A stretch of DNA of 41,922 nt from assembly GCA_013297675.1 (NCBI GenBank), contig JAAFHZ010000027.1, forward strand, positions 1 through 41,922, in the 5' to 3' direction. The notes beneath the pieces are model-generated. The model was not told the origin of the DNA, made no database searches, and saw nothing but the letters and a program-made list of their open reading frames with translations. The stretch is from Synechococcales cyanobacterium bin59.metabat.ball.084. GTDB taxonomy: Bacteria > Cyanobacteriota > Cyanobacteriia > Cyanobacteriales > Chamaesiphonaceae. The position numbers were made by a program, and so were the translations under genes. Below, piece by piece: positions 17,197 to 24,936 of this stretch. Within the stretch, counting starts at the first letter, position 1; each line of letters starts with the position of its first letter.

Positions 17197-18114
17197 CTAA
17201 ATTGGCATAAAGCAGGCTAATGGAAATAGCAAATATTCCAGAAAAAACAGTTTCCAAATAAATTGATAGAAGCTAGCGATCGCCTGTTGATCTTCTAAAG
17301 CTACATCTTGGCTGCGCCACCAAAGTAAGCCCAGCAACACACCATGAAAACCTACCAGAAACGCTGTGTTAACGGCAGGTAGTAGCCAAATACCTGCTGC
17401 CATCATACTTAGATAGGCGATCGAAATTACCCAGCGAGTGATGTTTAAAATTGCTGGTTTGCCCCAGCTAATAGTAAAGGTTTGAATCTGGAATTTTTGG
17501 TCGCCCGCCATGTCTGGTACGTCTTTGAAAATGGCGATCGCAATAGTGAATACTAAAATAAACAGGGTGATGATCCAAATAATTGGCGGAAATGATAGTA
17601 CTGGAGTCAGGGACTGGTTAAAGTAGGTGAAGAGTCCTACATTAACTACCAGTCCGCGCACGGCCAAGATGCAGAAGGCAGCCAGGAGGGAGAAGCGCTT
17701 GAGTCTAATAGGTGGTGCAGAGTAAGCGGTGCCTAAGATAATGCTGATCAAAACAGTGGCCAGGAGCCAGGGGCTACAGATGACGGCGATTGCGATTGCT
17801 AAAATGCCGGTGATGCCGATGATCCATTTTCCTTGCTGCACTGAGAATGCACCGCTCGCTAGGGGTAGATGGGGTTTGTTGACTCGATCGATCTCAATAT
17901 CATAGAGCTGGTTGAGTCCGACAATGTAGATGTTGCCACAGATACAGGCTAGCCAAGCTGCAAGAATTAGCTGGAGGTGGCCTGGGGAAAGAATGGTGCT
18001 GGGGGGAAGGTGGTTGCTAGCAATTGCGATGAGGTATAGGGCGATGACGCTGAGGGTAGTGCCAATAATGGTGTGGGGGCGGGAAAATTGCCAAAGGCTA
18101 GATAGAAATAACAC
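17197..18114 (-). CDS. Homogentisate phytyltransferase (VTE2 type), GTG start
   Basis: This membrane prenyltransferase joins homogentisate and phytyl diphosphate, the committed step of tocopherol synthesis. The 305-residue protein has about eight hydrophobic segments and both prenyl-diphosphate/Mg motifs of the UbiA superfamily: NQLYDIEIDRVNKPHLPLAS and KDVPDMAGDQKFQIQT. The start is a GTG at 18112-18114 with a good AAAGGAGAA ribosome binding site 9 nt upstream. Chlorophyll and menaquinone prenyltransferases share the fold, but the motif wording and the directly following cyclase gene favour the tocopherol enzyme. A divergent alpha/beta hydrolase gene starts 187 bp upstream. Confidence 0.93.
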   Translation of the reverse strand: MLFLSSLWQFSRPHTIIGTTLSVIALYLIAIASNHLPPSTILSPGHLQLILAAWLACICGNIYIVGLNQLYDIEIDRVNKPHLPLASGAFSVQQGKWIIGITGILAIAIAVICSPWLLATVLISIILGTAYSAPPIRLKRFSLLAAFCILAVRGLVVNVGLFTYFNQSLTPVLSFPPIIWIITLFILVFTIAIAIFKDVPDMAGDQKFQIQTFTISWGKPAILNITRWVISIAYLSMMAAGIWLLPAVNTAFLVGFHGVLLGLLWWRSQDVALEDQQAIASFYQFIWKLFFLEYLLFPLACFMPI

Positions 18115-18300
18115 GCGAGAATTCTCCTTTGGCTGGTCAAACTACCTCTAGCTTAGATCAAAGTTGTCCTGCTCCCAAGATTACGCCAGAGTCCGCCGGT
18201 AGTTCTAGATGCAAATTTCTTGTCGCCGGGTTGATGCTGGGGGCTTGCCCAATAGAGTCGAGGGCTAATGTTACAATTCGGGCAGGAATTATAAAAAATA

Positions 18301-19287
18301 ATGGTTTTAGTCTTAGCTATCCTCGCTGTCACCAGCACATATCATGTGATTGCCAGTCACCAAGAAAATCAGCAATCACCTCCCGGCACTATTACTGCCG
18401 ATCAAGCCAAAATCCACTGGTATACTCAGGGCAGCGGCGCAGCCATCATCATCGATCACAGCCTGGGTGGCGTAGAAGGCTATCTGTTAATTGATCAATT
18501 AGCAAAACTAGGCAGAGTAATCATCTTCGATCGACCGGGCTACGGCTGGAGTAGCCCCAACTGGCACCCCCGCACCAGCCAACAAATTAACCTTGAACTC
18601 CAAAACCTTCTGCAAACTGCCCAAATTCAGCCCCCATACATTTTAGTGGGCGACTCTTTCGGTAGCTACAACATGCGTTTATTTGCCCACAGTTATCCAG
18701 AACAAGTCAGCGGCCTGATTATGACTGATGGCTTACATCCAGACCAAATGCTAGCATTGCCATTACACCTAAAAATTCTCAAAATATTTTTCACCATCTC
18801 CTTTGTATTTGTCAGTTGCGGAGCCGCACTTGGCATTGTCAGAATCCTCGGTCTATTGGGCATCTTTGAAATCATCAAACCAGAGCTAAGGCGCTGTGAA
18901 CCGATCAGACTTCAACAAGTCAAAAGATCCTTTTATCGCGCTAGTCATTGGCTCACCATGGCCAGAGAAATGAGCAGCCTAGATATTAGCGGTAGACAAC
19001 TGCGAGTTGCCAACGACCTGGGAGATCTACCCGTGATCAACATCAAAGCCGCCACATTTTTAGGAATTCCTCTGCCAGCCATATTTTGGAGCTGGTTAAT
19101 GAACTCAGCCGATCGAGCCAGAGATCAAATCCATTTAGCCCTTAACCAAGTTTCTGGCAATTCGCGGCAATTATTGGCACCCCAAAGCAGCCATTTTGTC
19201 TGGGTTGATCAACCCGAAGTGATGGTGGCTGCGGTAGAGGAGATAATCGATATAATTCACAGCAGCGATATACCCGAAAACTGCTGA
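18301..19287 (+). CDS. Membrane-anchored alpha/beta hydrolase next to tocopherol genes
   Basis: A 328-residue protein with an N-terminal hydrophobic anchor (MVLVLAILAVTSTYHVIAS) followed by an alpha/beta hydrolase domain: YTQGSGAAIIIDHSLGG in the oxyanion region, FDRPGYGWS, nucleophile elbow GDSFG (Ser119), a hydrophobic lid region (about 158-190) and a C-terminal SSHFVWVDQPE with the expected catalytic His. The substrate is unknown. It is divergent from the homogentisate phytyltransferase gene and might release phytol or act on a prenyl ester, but that is context only. Its 3' end overlaps dgt by 31 bp. Confidence 0.82.
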   Translation: MVLVLAILAVTSTYHVIASHQENQQSPPGTITADQAKIHWYTQGSGAAIIIDHSLGGVEGYLLIDQLAKLGRVIIFDRPGYGWSSPNWHPRTSQQINLELQNLLQTAQIQPPYILVGDSFGSYNMRLFAHSYPEQVSGLIMTDGLHPDQMLALPLHLKILKIFFTISFVFVSCGAALGIVRILGLLGIFEIIKPELRRCEPIRLQQVKRSFYRASHWLTMAREMSSLDISGRQLRVANDLGDLPVINIKAATFLGIPLPAIFWSWLMNSADRARDQIHLALNQVSGNSRQLLAPQSSHFVWVDQPEVMVAAVEEIIDIIHSSDIPENC

Positions 19288-20549
19288 AATAATCTGGTGG
19301 CATAGGAATCAGTCATGCCAGAAATAAAGTCTGTAACCCGCAATAATTGCTGATAACTATCTGCATCGATCTGAGGACGATAAGCGATCGGCAGCATCTG
19401 TAACACTAACTGACTTTTAGAATTGTTTGGCTGATGCAGCGCCGTGGCAAACTCCATCAACAGCTTACCCAAGACCTCATATCCGGCAATCTGTACCCCC
19501 ACCACATGAGGATGCTGAAAAATCGATCGACGAGCCTGCTCATTAATAGTTGCCAATGCCTGCCGGTAGCTACTGAGTGATAGCAAATCTCCTGCAAACT
19601 CACCGCGCAACATCGCCGCCTCATGAGTCAGAAAATTCTCTGCCGCTTCCTTCACTAATATATCGATCGACTTCGCCCGCAAATGCATCACCTGCTCTGC
19701 TTCTGCTCCTGGCTCCAGGGAAATATCTAGGCAGGCAATTTTGTTTAACAATTCCACTACTTCCCTAAAACTCAAATAGCCCATTTGATAGCCATCTTCA
19801 ATATCAATAATTAAATAACAAATATCATCCGCCGCCTCCACCAAAAAAGTCAACGGATGCCGACACCAAGCCGCATCGCCCATAGGTAATAAGCCCACCG
19901 TCTCCGCAACCGCTGCAAACAAATCTCGATCGGCCTGAAAAAAACCATATTTGGCCGTGGAACCGGGCTGAGATTGACGGGGATACTTGGCAAAAGCGGC
20001 AATGGTCGGACAAGTAAGCTGTAAACTCCCCGATCGATGGGGAATTTCTAACCGAGCCAAAATCCGAAACCCCTGGGCATTACCTTCAAAGTTTTCTAAA
20101 TCGGCCTGCTGAGTTGCCGATAAATCCAAATTAGGCTGTAATTTTTGCCAATTCTGGAAACCCGATCGAATGGCATTTTCGCCAGAATGACCAAAGGGCG
20201 GATTGCCAATATCGTGGGCAATGCAGGCAGCAGCCACAATATCACCAATATCTGCTGGGGTAATATGTTCTACTTGGGTCACAATTTTTTCACCGACTAA
20301 CCGCCCCAGCGATCGACCGACACTGGCCACTTCTAAACTATGGATCAGCCTGGTGCGTACATAATCATTTTGGCTCAGAGAAAAAACCTGGGTTTTGTCC
20401 TTGAGTCGCCGAAAAGCCGCTGAAAAAATTAATCGATCGAAGTCTCGCTGAAAAGGGGTACGCGCCACACTCAAATCTTCAGCTTGGGTGCGACCTAAGC
20501 GCTGAGGGTGCAGCAGCTTTGACCACTGCATCGATTTAGCTTTGCGCAT
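19257..20549 (-). CDS. dgt: dGTP triphosphohydrolase-like HD protein
   Basis: A 430-residue HD-domain protein of the dGTPase family, which removes triphosphate from deoxynucleotides and helps balance dNTP pools. Family markers are the start RTPFQRDFDRLIFSAAFRRL, DKTQVFSLSQNDYVRTRLIH with the first metal-binding His, and the HD motif AHDIGNPPFGHSGE. Further markers are VEAADDICYLIIDIEDGYQM and the C-terminal DFISGMTDSYATRLFQ. All metal-binding residues appear intact. The nucleotide preference of cyanobacterial members cannot be read from sequence. It starts just upstream of the psbT terminator, and its 3' end overlaps the hydrolase gene by 31 bp. Confidence 0.93.
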   Translation of the reverse strand: MRKAKSMQWSKLLHPQRLGRTQAEDLSVARTPFQRDFDRLIFSAAFRRLKDKTQVFSLSQNDYVRTRLIHSLEVASVGRSLGRLVGEKIVTQVEHITPADIGDIVAAACIAHDIGNPPFGHSGENAIRSGFQNWQKLQPNLDLSATQQADLENFEGNAQGFRILARLEIPHRSGSLQLTCPTIAAFAKYPRQSQPGSTAKYGFFQADRDLFAAVAETVGLLPMGDAAWCRHPLTFLVEAADDICYLIIDIEDGYQMGYLSFREVVELLNKIACLDISLEPGAEAEQVMHLRAKSIDILVKEAAENFLTHEAAMLRGEFAGDLLSLSSYRQALATINEQARRSIFQHPHVVGVQIAGYEVLGKLLMEFATALHQPNNSKSQLVLQMLPIAYRPQIDADSYQQLLRVTDFISGMTDSYATRLFQQFSGISLL

Positions 20550-20580
20550 GAGAAATCAATTTTGATAGTTCTAACCAATA

Positions 20581-20609
20581 ATAAGCCCCACCTTTAAGAT
20601 GGGGCTTAT
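20581..20609 (-). terminator. Terminator of the psbB-psbT unit
   Basis: A perfect 10-bp stem (ataagcccca 20581-20590 with tggggcttat 20600-20609) lies 11 bp past the psbT stop. On the minus strand the last arm runs into TTATTATT. Position and structure fit intrinsic termination before dgt. Confidence 0.7.
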
Positions 20610-20619
20610 GAACAGAAAA

Positions 20620-20730
20620 TTAATCCTTGTCACCGCTGCGGGGAATGCGCGGGGGTTCCCGAAAAGCAATAGCAAAGAAGATGACTCCGAGTGCCAATGC
20701 TGTTACCAAAATATAAATAGTAGCTTCCAT
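20620..20730 (-). CDS. psbT: Photosystem II protein PsbT
   Basis: A 36-residue, single-span thylakoid protein, MEATIYILVTALALGVIFFA followed by IAFREPPRIPRSGDKD. The FFAIAFREPPRI block is the PsbT signature. PsbT sits at the dimer interface of photosystem II close to the D1/CP47 side and helps repair of the reaction centre. It lies 63 bp downstream of psbB in the usual cyanobacterial order and ends before a strong terminator. The soluble tail is a few residues longer than in many cyanobacteria (31-35 residues). Confidence 0.97.
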   Translation of the reverse strand: MEATIYILVTALALGVIFFAIAFREPPRIPRSGDKD

Positions 20731-20757
20731 TTATTCCTCTACAAATTTAATAACAAC

Positions 20758-20786
20758 AGCAGGAGAGAGTTTTATTCTCTCCTGCT
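20758..20786 (-). promoter_or_regulatory. Perfect hairpin in the psbB-psbT spacer
   Basis: An 11-bp perfect stem, agcaggagaga (20758-20768) with tctctcctgct (20776-20786), with a 7-nt loop lies 8 bp past the psbB stop. It lacks a T-run, so it may stabilise the psbB 3' end or set partial read-through into psbT rather than terminate. Role inferred. Confidence 0.55.
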
Positions 20787-20793
20787 ATATCTA

Positions 20794-22326
20794 TTATGTC
20801 GCTTCTTTCTTGATGGTTGTAACGTCACCAAGCTTCGCGTACTTACCAAACTCGATTTGTTCTTCGATACCTTCTTCTACCCCAGCGAATACGTCGCGGT
20901 AGATAGTCCGGGCACCGTGCCACAAGTGGCCAAAGAAGAACAACAGTGCAAATACTGCGTGTCCGAAAGTAAACCAGCCGCGTGGGCTAGTGCGGAATAC
21001 ACCGTCAGAATTCAAAGTGGCGCGATCAAATTCAAAGATTTCGCCGCCTTGAGCTTTGCGGGCAAACGCCTTAACTTGAGCAGGCTCTTTGAAAGTTTGA
21101 CCATTCAAAGCACCGCCGTAGAATGTGGCTGTTACGCCAGCTTGCTCGAAGCTATACTTCGATTCAGCACGACGGAAAGGAATATCTGCTCTTACCACAC
21201 CCTCGGAGTCAGTCATAACAACTGGGAAGGTTTCAAAGAAGTTCGGCAGACGACGTACATTCAAAGTACGGCCTTCGGAATCTCTGAAGATGGGGTGGCC
21301 AGACCAAGATTGAGCGATACCATCGCCTTTATCCATAGCTCCAGTGCGGAACAGACCGCCTTTAGCAGGGCTATTACCAACGTAGTCATAGAAGGCTAGC
21401 TTATCAGGAATTGCCTGCCAAGCCTGCTCTTCAGTTTTACCTTCGTTAATACTGTTCTGAACCCGGCGAGAAATCTCTTGCGTGAAGTAGCCGCCATCCC
21501 ACTGGTAACGAGTTGGACCAAATAGCTCTATCGGAGTGGTAGCGTTGCCGTACCACATGGTTCCAGCCACGATGAACGCCGCAAAGAATACCGCAGCAAT
21601 ACTCGAAGACAATACAGTCTCGATATTCCCCATCCGTAGAGCTTTGTATAGACGCTCTGGCGGACGAACAGTCAAGTGGAATAAGCCAGCAATAATTCCG
21701 ACAGTACCAGCCGCGATGTGGTGAGCCACTACGCCGCCCGGATTGAAAGGGTTAAAGCCTGACGGTCCCCATTCGGGAGCCACTGGTTGCACATGACCGG
21801 TAATGCCGTAAGGGTCAGAAACCCACATCCCTGGCCCAAACAGACCGGTGAGGTGGAATGCTCCAAAGCCAAAGCAGAGCAGCCCCGACAAGAACAGGTG
21901 AATACCAAACATTTTGGGCAAATCTAGAGCAGGTTCGCCAGTACGGGGATCTTTGAAAAGATCTAAATCCCAATATACCCAGTGCCAAATAGCAGCTAAG
22001 AACAGCAGCCCAGAAAGAATAATGTGAGCAGCAGCAACGCCTTCAAACGACCAATAGCCAACATCGGCTGCGGATTCGCCCGGAATAACGCTCCAACCAC
22101 CCCAAGACTTGGTAACGCCCAAGCGCGCCATGAATGGCAGCACAAACATGCCTTGCCGCCACATCGGATTGAAAACTGGATCGCTAGGGTCAAAAGTAGA
22201 TAGCTCAAATAAAGCCATCGAACCAGACCAGCCTGCTACGAGAGCAGTGTGCATTAAGTGTACAGAAATCAACCGACCTGGGTCATTCAGGACGACTGTA
22301 TGTACTCGATACCAAGGTAGCCCCAT
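20794..22326 (-). CDS. psbB: Photosystem II CP47 chlorophyll-binding protein
   Basis: CP47 is the core antenna of photosystem II on the D2 side, binding chlorophyll a in six transmembrane helices. The 510-residue protein begins [20 protein letters not shown] and carries the conserved blocks [51 protein letters not shown] and [19 protein letters not shown]. The large lumenal loop is followed by the last helix, [19 protein letters not shown], with chlorophyll-ligand histidines in the helices. The length is standard. A GGAGGGG ribosome binding site sits about 7-9 nt upstream. psbT follows on the same strand, and an HLR1 match lies 214 bp upstream of the start. Confidence 0.99.
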
Positions 22327-22539
22327 TGACTACGCCCCTCCAAGTAATAAAGTGTCTATTTGATATTTTTAATATGGCAGGCAAGCTGCATTTCTTGGCT
22401 TATGTTAATCTTCTTCTGGCCTCAGAAGCAAGGTGAATCAGACATTTCAACCTATTGGGTGACAGATTAGGTGCAGTGCGATCGAGCAATGCCCTTCAGC
22501 TTACTGATTTCGGGGCGGTTAAGAAGATTTTCATGATTG

Positions 22540-22557
22540 TTTACATAAGTTTACATT
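22540..22557 (+). promoter_or_regulatory. HLR1 element (predicted RpaB site) upstream of psbB
   Basis: TTTACATA-AG-TTTACATT matches the HLR1 consensus (G/T)TTACA(T/A)(T/A)-N2-(G/T)TTACA(T/A)(T/A) at every position. HLR1 is the binding site of the response regulator RpaB, which controls light-responsive photosystem genes. It lies 214 bp before psbB (opposite strand) and 118 bp before the small gene at 22675. On the plus strand its second half overlaps a candidate -35 box. Confidence 0.65.
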
Positions 22558-22578
22558 AAGGATTTGAATTGTTAATAA
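22550..22578 (+). promoter_or_regulatory. Candidate plus-strand promoter overlapping HLR1
   Basis: TTTACA (22550-22555), a 17-bp spacer and TAATAA (22573-22578) would start transcription near 22585, about 90 bp ahead of the 44-codon gene. The boxes are moderate matches. Elsewhere in the 348-bp gap 22327-22674, apart from the psbB ribosome binding site, nothing further was recognised. Confidence 0.35.
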
Positions 22579-22674
22579 TTACACGAGTATTTCATGGTTT
22601 GAAGAAATGTATACCAGCGTTTTCCATAGTAGGTTAGTCGATTTACTGGATAATGTGACACAATACACCTGTAC

Positions 22675-22809
22675 ATGACTCAAAATCCAAACAACACCCA
22701 TAATGGTACAGACGTGTACGACTCTAACGGTATACATTTGGGTTCTGCTGCTCCAGGAACTGGAGTTCTTTACAAGGCAGCCGTGAATGGAAGAAAAATT
22801 ACAATTTAA
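22675..22809 (+). CDS. Small uncharacterised peptide gene (44 codons)
   Basis: The frame starts with ATG 22675 and ends at TAA 22807-22809; an in-frame TAA at 22651-22653 closes it upstream, so it is not the tail of a longer gene in this sequence. The peptide is hydrophilic, with an Asn/Thr-rich start (MTQNPNNTHNG), a Gly-rich middle (DSNGIHLGSAAPGTG) and a basic end (KAAVNGRKITI). No signal peptide or membrane span is seen and the family is not recognised. No clear ribosome binding site precedes it. The stop lies only 17 bp before the DUF6980 start, which suggests co-transcription. It could be a real small protein, a leader peptide or a degenerate remnant. Confidence 0.45.
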   Translation: MTQNPNNTHNGTDVYDSNGIHLGSAAPGTGVLYKAAVNGRKITI

Positions 22810-22826
22810 GTGAATGGATGATAATT

Positions 22827-23102
22827 ATGTCAGATTCAAATTGTTGCTCTGGAATGCAACAGAATCTCTTGTCTAAAGAAGTTCCTGTTGTTTACTCATC
22901 AAAGTTTCGTGAGTACGGTATTTCAGTTCTAGATGGTGGTTCCTCGTTCATTGAGATCAAGAGCTGTCCTTGGTGTGGTAGTACTTTACCAACTAGTCTA
23001 CGAACTCAATGGTTTGAGAAAATTGCTTCATTAGGTCTAGAACCCGATTCCCCAGAAATTCCTCTAGAGTATCTAGATGACAAGTGGTGGGTCAAAAACT
23101 AG
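22827..23102 (+). CDS. DUF6980-like small Cys-rich protein
   Basis: A protein of about 91 residues starting MSDSNCCSGMQQ. Key features are the early CC pair, the stretch YGISVLDGGSSFIEIKSCPW and the motif CPWCGSTLP, then SLRTQWFEKIASLGLEPDS and a final DDKWWVKN. The four cysteines (CC and CPWC) could bind zinc. This pattern matches the DUF6980 family as recalled; its biochemical role is not known. The frame also allows ATG 22818; ATG 22827 is preferred because the family starts shortly before the CC pair. It follows the 44-codon gene and ends before a strong terminator, so the two form an isolated small unit. Confidence 0.75.
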   Translation: MSDSNCCSGMQQNLLSKEVPVVYSSKFREYGISVLDGGSSFIEIKSCPWCGSTLPTSLRTQWFEKIASLGLEPDSPEIPLEYLDDKWWVKN

Positions 23103-23125
23103 ATCATTCTTAAGACTCCGATCTA

Positions 23126-23174
23126 AAAAATAAGTGTTGCCCCGACAAAACTTATCCCGACAGCACTTATTTTT
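23126..23174. terminator. Terminator after the DUF6980 gene
   Basis: An 11-bp stem, aaaaataagtg (23126-23136) with cacttattttt (23164-23174), encloses a 27-nt loop. The arms provide A and T runs for termination in both directions. It lies 23 bp past the DUF6980 stop. Confidence 0.6.
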
Positions 23175-23252
23175 ATACCCAAAAGCCACAGGCATGCTTA
23201 TATCTCATCAAGTATGATGGTAATTGTATATTTGAAGTTATGGTGCAGAAGC

Positions 23253-23462
23253 ATGGGTGAAGCAAAACGGCGTAAACAATCTGGTGATGCTTCAAGCAAC
23301 AGCGATCGGATTGTGCCTTGGCTGCCTCTAACCAAAAAGCAATCGGAGGCATTTGTGGTCTGGAGTACTCGCGGTGCTTGGTTTGGGATTGGTGGCTTGG
23401 CGCTGTTATGGCTGACCGTCAGATTAATCGGGCCAGCAGCAGGTTGGTGGACGACAGAGTGA
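23253..23462 (+). CDS. DUF2839 family small membrane protein
   Basis: A 69-residue protein that begins MGEAKRRKQSGDAS, the signature start of DUF2839, followed by DRIVPWLPLTKKQSEAFVVW and one transmembrane segment (about residues 44-62, GIGGLALLWLTVRLIGPAAG) with a WW end. The family is nearly restricted to cyanobacteria and has no assigned function. The frame extends upstream to 23214, but ATG 23253 gives the conserved N-terminus. It appears to be a single-gene unit between the DUF6980 terminator and the DUF1815 promoter. Confidence 0.88.
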   Translation: MGEAKRRKQSGDASSNSDRIVPWLPLTKKQSEAFVVWSTRGAWFGIGGLALLWLTVRLIGPAAGWWTTE

Positions 23463-23592
23463 ATAGAAACACGCAGCCACCTAAAAAAAATTGATCGGTT
23501 AAGATTCATGGTCACTTTGGCTTTCAACCCAGATTCCCCGATGGGGATCACAGCAGAACTTGTGAAAAAAGAACATTAAAAAATAATTAAGC

Positions 23593-23598
23593 TATAAT
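23593..23598 (+). promoter_or_regulatory. -10 box of the DUF1815 gene
   Basis: A perfect TATAAT lies 32 bp before the DUF1815 ATG (23631). No -35 box at standard spacing is seen. The call rests on the single element and its position. Confidence 0.45.
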
Positions 23599-23630
23599 GG
23601 CCTTTGGGTATCACCAGAGGAAAGTACCAA

Positions 23631-23951
23631 ATGTTTGGAAGACTTGCTGAACAGCATCGCGCCTTAGTAAAAGACCTAATCATAGACTTACAGGCTTTAT
23701 CGATCGCCCTAGAAAATAAGGGCTACATGACTTCTTGGTACACCTGCGGGGATGTCCTCGAAAGTGCTTCATTTATGGTCAGCCTTGCGGATGGTCATAA
23801 AATCAGATTTTTTGTTTCGGATAGCAGCATCAATTGGACTGAACGCCGCAATGGCCGTGAGTTAATGAAACTCGAAGGAGCCGAAGCCATCAACCAACTG
23901 CAAGATCTGGAAAATCTATTGAAGTTTCCGGCTCCAGTTTTGGTAGCCTAA
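23631..23951 (+). CDS. DUF1815 family protein
   Basis: A 106-residue soluble protein of the cyanobacteria-specific DUF1815 family, recognised from MFGRLAEQHRALVKDLIIDL, SWYTCGD, SASFMVSLADGHKIRFFVSD, WTERRNGRELMKLEGAEAI and the QLQDLENLLK helix. The start is ATG 23631, preceded by GAGGAAAG at good spacing; the frame is open nine codons further up but lacks a ribosome binding site there. No function is known for the family. Confidence 0.9.
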   Translation: MFGRLAEQHRALVKDLIIDLQALSIALENKGYMTSWYTCGDVLESASFMVSLADGHKIRFFVSDSSINWTERRNGRELMKLEGAEAINQLQDLENLLKFPAPVLVA

Positions 23952-24027
23952 TTAGAGTATTCTCTGATGCCATTTGGTGATCAAAGATGCTAATGTCGAG
24001 ATATTAAATACTTACCTCAGCCCCTTC

Positions 24028-24936
24028 ATGCAACCTTACACAGCATCGCTCCAAGCGGGATGGCAGCATCAGTTTGTAGAGACTAATAACATTCGTCTGC
24101 ATTGTGTTACTCAAGGAGAAGGGGAGTTAGTAATCTTACTCCATGGTTTTCCGGAGTTCTGGTATTCTTGGCGACACCAGATTCCGGTATTGGCACGCCA
24201 CTTTAAGGTAGTAGTCCCAGATCTACGGGGCTACAATTATTCTGATAAGCCCACCAGCGGCTACGACTTAGATACGCTCAGCAGCGATGTAATGGGTTTA
24301 ATTAAGTCCTTGGGTTACACCAAAGCGCACATAGTAGGCCATGACTGGGGTGGAGCGATCGCCTGGCACATTGCCCAGAAGTTTCCTCAGGTGTTGGATA
24401 AGCTGGCAATTTTGAATGCTCCCCACCCCCAACAGTTTTTACAAGAAATTGGTACCAACCTTGATCAGTTTCGCCGAAGCTGGTATTTATTCGCGTTCCA
24501 GATGCCTGGAATCCCCGAGTGGCTGATTCAACAAAATATCAAAGAGTTTGTCCTCAATGTCTTTAGGGGTCAGGCGATCCGCAAAGGAGCTTTCAGCGCC
24601 GAAGACAACCAGATCTACCAAGAAGCCTTGGCGAAGCCCGGTGTCTTGGAAGCGGCCTTAAACTACTATCGAAACTTTTTGGCTCCCCAAAACTGGCTGA
24701 ATAATTTAGGTACTACCCAAAGATTGATTACTTCACCAACTTTGGTACTGTGGGGCGAAGAAGACAGTATGCTTAGCCAAAAGTTGACTAACGGTATGGC
24801 CAAGTTAGTTAGCGCACCTTTTCAGTTAAAGCTGATCCCCCAGTGTGGCCATTGGATTCAGCAAGAAGTACCCCAAACGGTAAACCGGGAATTAATTAGT
24901 TTCTTTAGAGACAAAATCAGCTTGGAATCAGTGTAG
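24028..24936 (+). CDS. Alpha/beta hydrolase, epoxide hydrolase/dehalogenase-like
   Basis: A 302-residue soluble enzyme. The oxyanion motif HGFPEFWYSWRHQ, the PDLRGYNYSDKP loop, the nucleophile elbow GHDWGG with Asp106, a C-terminal acid in LWGEEDSM and the catalytic His in QCGHWIQQE together fit the Asp-nucleophile branch of alpha/beta hydrolases (epoxide hydrolases, haloalkane and haloacetate dehalogenases). The HGFPEFW wording leans to epoxide hydrolase. The start is taken as ATG 24028; the frame can be opened at TTG 23974 or GTG 23977, which would add residues not expected for the family. The neighbours do not suggest a substrate. Confidence 0.85.
   Translation: MQPYTASLQAGWQHQFVETNNIRLHCVTQGEGELVILLHGFPEFWYSWRHQIPVLARHFKVVVPDLRGYNYSDKPTSGYDLDTLSSDVMGLIKSLGYTKAHIVGHDWGGAIAWHIAQKFPQVLDKLAILNAPHPQQFLQEIGTNLDQFRRSWYLFAFQMPGIPEWLIQQNIKEFVLNVFRGQAIRKGAFSAEDNQIYQEALAKPGVLEAALNYYRNFLAPQNWLNNLGTTQRLITSPTLVLWGEEDSMLSQKLTNGMAKLVSAPFQLKLIPQCGHWIQQEVPQTVNRELISFFRDKISLESV

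Follow-up and report, generated by a model that had tools for sequence, protein, structure and literature searches.

The question raised by this locus is whether a 44-codon frame and the DUF6980-like gene directly behind it form a functional pair, and if so, of what kind. The window, by which we mean the whole stretch of 41,922 nucleotides analyzed, belongs to a 4.64 Mb assembly, which psbB and other genes suggest to be that of a cyanobacterium, and the unit lies in it between a minus-strand gene upstream, which we take from its translation to be psbB, and a plus-strand DUF2839 gene. The 44-codon frame (22675-22809, plus strand) runs from an ATG at 22675 to a TAA at 22807-22809, and is closed upstream by an in-frame TAA at 22651-22653, seven codons before its start, in agreement with the preliminary description of this DNA. 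The DUF6980 frame on the same strand has its first ATG at 22818 (94 codons); alignment with relatives favors the ATG at 22827, from which the gene (22827-23102) encodes 91 amino acids. Depending on which of these is the start, 8 or 17 bp separate the two frames, and the 17 bp originally reported hold for the favored one.

The first answer comes from the peptide itself. At E values up to 1 its sole Pfam match is the Cytotoxic family PF09000 (E 0.0028), aligned at profile positions 46-79 of 80 with a score of 18.4 bits, which is below the curated cut-off of 22 bits. A tblastn search with the peptide against 72,556 plasmid records found a single record at E up to 1, whose "SAR2788 family putative toxin" is matched (51% over 39 aa, E 3e-4) up to its C-terminus; this toxin itself matches PF09000 at 7.6e-14. 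When nine whole genomes were searched with a profile of three toxins that did not contain the window, the single match at E up to 0.1 was the window peptide (5.2e-12), from codon 6 to the last codon, and codons 1-5 have no counterpart in the toxins. A profile of five toxin ends, which includes the window peptide and a stub from Terrisporobacter described below, matches colicin E3 in the PDB (1e44 at 7.2e-9, 1jch at 2.7e-8). These alignments show homology between the peptide and the end of the colicin E3 RNase domain: codons 6-44 (22690-22806) are the C-terminal stub of such an RNase. The preliminary description had left the purpose of the peptide unknown; a reading as a free peptide or small precursor was rejected on the toxin homology. 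A short "unknown peptide" can thus be a fossil toxin end, recognized by homology and confirmed by its partner.

The domain is far from complete. Where the toxins carry the motif WDxTHNDIEVY the window reads NPNNTHNGTDVY, with Asn at the Asp position and Asp at the Glu position, and both the next His and the histidine of HLG are retained. The conserved set of Tox-ColE3 is given, in the part of the source used here, as R, Dxx[HK], E and H (PMC3482391); the peptide keeps the H positions of this set and departs from it at D and E, and we take the conserved Arg to fall within the missing half of the domain, its position being an assumption. Since the first half of the domain is absent and two catalytic positions are altered, we regard the peptide as a stub. 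Inspection by eye of the three plus-strand frames of 22330-22830 revealed no lost toxin start, and neither the PF09000 search nor the three-toxin profile found an intact E3-type toxin in this genome.

One could still suppose that the 44 residues are translated into a functional product, either a small toxin or the toxin of a type II toxin-antitoxin pair with DUF6980. The frame does offer an ATG, 44 open codons, both histidine positions of the fold and a partner 8-17 bp away, yet profile positions 1-45, over half of the domain, are missing, the two catalytic residues are replaced as described, inspection by eye shows no evident ribosome-binding site ahead of the ATG, and a run of 39 codons without a stop is not unusual in random sequence. 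Nor do the 59 other relatives hold a convincing copy: in 60 genomes, the window's own and its relatives, nothing besides the window scored under E 0.041, and nine weak matches were found up to E 1. A type II system pairs a small intact intracellular toxin with its antitoxin, and here the toxin frame is a truncated domain. We consider a functional peptide highly improbable.

Signals around the unit were examined as well. A promoter-like site, TTTACA-18-AATAAT, at 22550-22579 on the plus strand, found by consensus scan only (10 of 12 positions), lies at the edge of the module. Both strands of 22300-23300 contain 6 such sites, none better than 10/12, against 2.8 +/- 1.9 in shuffled sequence; these sites are weak evidence for the candidate promoter of the preliminary description. 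Behind the DUF6980 gene, a terminator-like hairpin at 23128-23172 (plus strand) has a predicted stability of -11.3 kcal/mol (z -5.2) that none of 200 shuffles equaled. It is absent from the list of the consensus terminator scan, which omitted it because its loop exceeds what the scan allows and listed one other site, within the DUF6980 gene.

The window partner is a member of DUF6980, as had been proposed, matching PF22400 at E 8.7e-24 with 84.1 bits (curated cut-off 27 bits) and containing both CC and CPWCG. The family is widespread: a scan of genome contigs gave 407 DUF6980 relatives, of which 80 were kept. Together with 14 loci from other searches these made 94, and a second set of 24, less four repeats, brought the total to about 114 distinct DUF6980-derived loci, a few of which (e.g. 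L020) are based on a short DUF6980-like stretch. A toxin-end model from six seeds, the window included, was applied to the loci in six frames. The Cytotoxic model matched two of the 94 loci, and in the second set it matched one new locus and one of the former again (L109). The peptide alone also matches two members of the locus set, L067 (1e-7) and L109 (1.1e-4), and of 500 shuffles of the peptide run against the same set, none came as low as E 1.1e-4, the best giving 0.0082.

In all three matched loci the toxin end lies directly upstream of the DUF6980 gene on the same strand. The first, L067 in an Alkalibaculum MAG, encodes RHS repeats, PT-HINT and the Cytotoxic domain (PF09000, 30.6 bits), 25 bp before DUF6980. 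The second, L152 on a viral contig that ends upstream, has a toxin end scoring 25.2 bits, above the cut-off, 4 bp before a DUF6980 gene whose product scores 43.2 bits. In both, a toxin with its catalytic part precedes DUF6980, where the window has only a stub. The third, L109 in Terrisporobacter, has a 28-codon stub between stops (20.5 bits, below the cut-off of 22), 20 bp before an intact DUF6980 gene; further upstream are a gene for HEAT repeats and one whose match to Imm32 is very weak (E 0.068).

Both families are rare in the samples searched. PF09000 was found in 3 of 398 genomes of a sample of the Terrisporobacter phylum and DUF6980 in 1 of 338 genomes of a like sample around Terrisporobacter, both counts including the Terrisporobacter genome that had been chosen as a DUF6980 carrier. 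A further DUF6980 search of 299 genomes, those listed being the same genomes, returned only the sample's own center genome. Among 43 DUF6980-carrying genomes outside the Streptomyces-like group, PF09000 passes in two: in the L067 genome the match is the adjacent one, and in the L109 genome it belongs to another locus with another partner. The argument that adjacency is not due to chance is one of simple counts and involves no formal model. It suggests that the toxin-linked DUF6980 copies are probable immunity proteins, the window copy among them, and we confine this claim to those copies because DUF6980 has no constant neighbor and the reverse control, described next, was negative. For part of DUF6980, the repeated position right after E3-type RNase toxins provides a first testable role.

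For the remainder of the family the picture is different. Within the stretches examined, a Cytotoxic match was found at 2 of the 80 genome loci and at none of the other 78, so immunity cannot be assumed for most members. In the reverse control, DUF6980 occurred at one of 15 toxin-derived E3-type loci, and that one (L118) is the L067 place; the others gave 0/14. The preliminary description had counted the lack of a consistent partner against its reading, and the 80 loci kept have none: among 455 frames within 400 bp of them, the largest group of similar frames covers 6 loci. Neighbors chosen by a simple longest-frame rule at 43 loci, with 37 Streptomyces-like actinomycete loci excluded, numbered 121; 83 had matches, to 66 families with at most three members each among the 25 listed. 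Similarly, 41 of 64 short frames at 12 Bacillota loci matched 44 families, and DUF3885 (twice), SMI1_KNR4 (once) and HEAT_2 (once), among the 25 listed, are too few for these 12 loci to be read as immunity loci.

E3-type toxins, for their part, are followed by various proteins. Two toxins share the subtype of the window stub: the plasmid toxin of L021 precedes a 197-aa protein without Pfam match, and that of L120 is followed by a different Cys-rich protein of 117 residues (L120:1617-1967), for which no Pfam family scores above its cut-off. Two cyanobacterial E3-type toxins are followed by DUF7683. Eight plasmid records contain a relative of the L067 toxin end; the Klebsiella region and three more were examined, and in one of them the next gene is annotated as a colicin E3-like immunity gene. 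No relative came up when viral sequences were scanned with the toxin end.

These results can also be read to mean that DUF6980 is a general metal-binding housekeeping protein, that its link with toxins is coincidental or a rare co-option, and that the window copy does the ordinary job. The 407 relatives in genome contigs, the variable neighbors of the 80 loci kept (6/80 in the largest group) and the 0/14 result at other E3-type toxin loci all fit this view. So does the parallel of Tdi5b, whose homologues lie mostly outside toxin loci and one of which neutralizes a toxin, according to the part of the source consulted (PMC13392607). We nevertheless regard it as unlikely: two rare families lie side by side in three independent cases besides the window, always on one strand and 4-25 bp apart; the window copy is without canonical residues, which makes a canonical job unlikely for it; and co-option for immunity would be compatible with the explanation we prefer. 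The opposite extreme, that the whole DUF6980 family confers immunity against ribosome-cutting E3-type toxins, we find distinctly improbable. If it were true, the several hundred copies that have no toxin beside them, spread over Actinomycetota, Proteobacteria, Bacillota, Verrucomicrobia, Planctomycetes and phages, would act as orphan immunity genes, directed against toxins that others deliver.

The state of the window copy deserves separate consideration. Canonical DUF6980, as represented by 49 relatives, contains HCC, CxxH, CPD, HDGG and CPWCG. In an alignment of 50 rows (the window and these relatives), with columns counted as conserved at 90% or more, the window protein retains 26 of 31 conserved columns and agrees with the consensus at 11 of the 55 variable ones; its conserved residues have been selectively retained. 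The five altered columns are C, H, C and D in or beside an in-frame deletion, across which the frame stays open, and the H of HDGG. Through deletion and substitution the protein is without four Cys/His residues that at least 48 of the 49 relatives have conserved. These losses are concentrated, one Cys/His set being gone and CC and CPWCG kept, and the lost set and CC/CPWCG may correspond to two metal sites. The window protein is an outlier, since each of the other 49 rows retains at least 29 of its conserved columns, and as such it may no longer be functional. The toxin-linked copies of L067 and L109 are canonical, so that the Cys/His losses are not a sign of toxin linkage.

Structure prediction was less confident for the window protein than for a canonical one (84 vs 93); the model of the L067 protein has a pLDDT of 92.7, and its comparison with the PDB gave no useful match (best E 1.6; 0 of 401 chains with Z >=2). 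PADLOC contained no match for the window or L067 and one chance-level match for L109, and in PHROGs the window proteins matched nothing, while L067 had weak matches to unknown families.

Such losses raise the possibility that the unit is decaying debris, a toxin stub together with a DUF6980 gene that is itself being lost, with neither functional today. The toxin half is plainly a stub, the window DUF6980 is the least conserved of the 50 rows with four Cys/His residues gone, and DUF6980-like copies with an in-frame stop occur in a same-genus genome and in a further cyanobacterial genome (G026). An open frame over 91 codons and the ratio of 26/31 conserved to 11/55 variable columns are, however, unlike neutral decay. 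We judge this account unlikely on the whole, though it deserves to be weighed seriously.

How the module came to lie at this site is suggested by comparison with one same-genus genome. Its DNA is 93% identical to the window up to 22555 and alignable again (82%) from 23253; between the points at which blastn homology ends and returns, the window has 697 bp (22556-23252) and the other genome 211 bp without alignable similarity. There psbB and DUF2839 are adjacent and the module is absent. A diverged DUF6980 copy is found elsewhere in that genome, at a contig end. Searched at the protein level, 60 genomes (the window's own and relatives) contained DUF6980 in three cases, the own one included, and in 386 cyanobacterial genomes PF22400 was over its cut-off in one, the window's, and at E up to 0.001 in four. 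The GC content of the module is 0.37-0.40, compared with 0.43-0.52 in the other 500-base windows of 21500-24499. Lateral acquisition would be the best explanation for a module that the one same-genus genome compared does not have at this site. The drop in GC and the empty site are better signs of foreign origin than the absence of HIP1 sites. The preliminary description had correctly reported that 22500-23270 has no such site, but this carries no meaning and tells nothing about mobility, because the 41.9 kb contain 8 sites in all and the whole of 17541-24355 is free of them. At the downstream edge, the DUF2839 gene probably starts at the ATG at 23253 and not at the ATG at 23214, since same-genus conservation begins at the former.

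Taken together, the explanation that we hold to be probably correct is that of a laterally acquired toxin/immunity module which has lost its toxin and retained its DUF6980 immunity gene. The unit would be the remnant of a polymorphic-toxin cassette, made up of the 3' end of an E3-type ribosomal-RNase gene and the immunity gene behind it. In intact relatives, a long carrier (in the Alkalibaculum MAG, one with RHS and PT-HINT) would bring the C-terminal RNase domain into a rival cell. There the domain would cleave 16S rRNA, which colicin E3 cuts near the decoding site, and the adjoining DUF6980 protein would bind the domain and block it. In the window, neither the carrier nor the first half of the RNase domain is left, and the 44-codon frame should therefore be catalytically dead. 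DUF6980 may remain in place as an orphan immunity gene, one that could guard against an incoming toxin of this type, and the last toxin codons may persist because the start region of the immunity gene adjoins them. The analysis shows the homology to the toxin and its truncation, the recurring gene order, the empty site in the same-genus genome and the selective retention of conserved DUF6980 residues. We infer binding, neutralization, the rRNA target and a present-day function, with gene order as the basis for binding and protection.

The earlier suggestion of a toxin-immunity-like unit is accordingly right about origin, given the E3-type toxin end and the pairing with DUF6980 in three loci, and wrong if an intact two-gene system was meant: in a polymorphic pair the immunity gene directly follows an intact toxin, and in the window it follows a stub. 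As to the points that the same description had named as telling against it, the peptide frame was not found in the other relatives searched, and the 80 genome loci of DUF6980 share no recurring partner, yet the toxin family that adjoins DUF6980 in three loci is that of the peptide.

The kind of system proposed is known; DUF6980 as an immunity family is the new part. The name DUF6980 occurs in no paper of the literature searched, which largely omits subscription journals. Like Tox-ColE3/PF09000, as characterized in the portion of the source used (PMC3482391), the peptide reaches the last residue of the domain with residues 6-44 and keeps two His positions; unlike a working member, it has no first half, Asn for Asp, Asp for Glu and a score below the cut-off, and is best called a remnant. 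The RHS/PT-HINT toxin of L067 shares with the window the same toxin end with a DUF6980 gene directly behind it, but its toxin is long and has the catalytic motif, and its DUF6980 is canonical, whereas the window has the end only and a non-canonical DUF6980. DUF6980 is a candidate addition to the immunity types named for the E3-type toxin. Pfam includes models of both Imm-Cloacin and Imm45, and neither matched the DUF6980 proteins of the window and L152 (E up to 1) or of L067 and L109 (E up to 0.5). These two are the immunity families named for Tox-ColE3 in the part of the source available, their genes lying, as those of DUF6980 do here, beside the same kind of toxin (PMC3482391). Imm45 is described there with a C-terminal W, which DUF6980 has too, and the CC...CPWCG pattern sets DUF6980 apart from both families as far as those descriptions go (PMC3482391).

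Orphan immunity genes of Vibrio T6SS arrays offer a parallel in that the immunity gene stays when the toxin gene is lost or displaced, going by the excerpt of the source used (PMC5361080). The window differs in that its unit stands alone, with psbB and DUF2839 on either side and in a cyanobacterium, as judged from the neighboring genes, which were those examined. Tdi5b is another parallel, with mixed neighbors and rare members acting as immunity proteins, and differs in that its toxin is a DNase, on the partial text used (PMC13392607).

Several related loci were seen alongside. The DUF7683 family (PF24731) was found directly after E3-type toxins at L035:1817-2077, L030:1202-1453 (minus strand) and L124:1632-1850, two of these in one cyanobacterial genome and one on a Vibrio plasmid, and because it directly follows such toxins it looks like another unnamed E3-toxin immunity family. 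A phage-deposited scaffold from human faeces (L125:2366-2942) has a stand-alone E3-type domain of 89 residues between stops, preceded by a helix-turn-helix-like frame and overlapped at its end by a frame of 105 residues. The genes around the SAR2788-family toxin on the Klebsiella plasmid (L021) have Bacillus-like names (S8 peptidase, DUF4030, sigma factor), and this record may be chimeric.

Among DUF6980 relatives, the cyanobacterial genome G026 has two DUF6980-like copies (L004:1419-1728 and L005:1403-1687), 84% identical over 311 bp, with a TAG at the same codon and each less than 2 kb from a frame that resembles a DNA methyltransferase by eye. They may represent a dead copy that was duplicated, or a small mobile piece. 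Two diverged DUF6980-like genes occur in Shewanella phage vB_SspM_M16-3 (L022:2980-3285 and L161:2480-2785); one is near the repressor and Cox genes, the other lies between genes for baseplate and tail. In Microcystis phage MaAM05 (L023:2779-3288) the DUF6980 domain has an N-terminal extension that contains further Cys/His residues. In three genomes from a single cyanobacterial genus (L017, L018, L019), weak DUF6980 matches (22-23 bits, below the cut-off) fall inside open frames some 1,140 residues long. Four loci that are alphaproteobacterial by title (L043, L069, L090, L117) share a similar frame of about 570 residues downstream of DUF6980.
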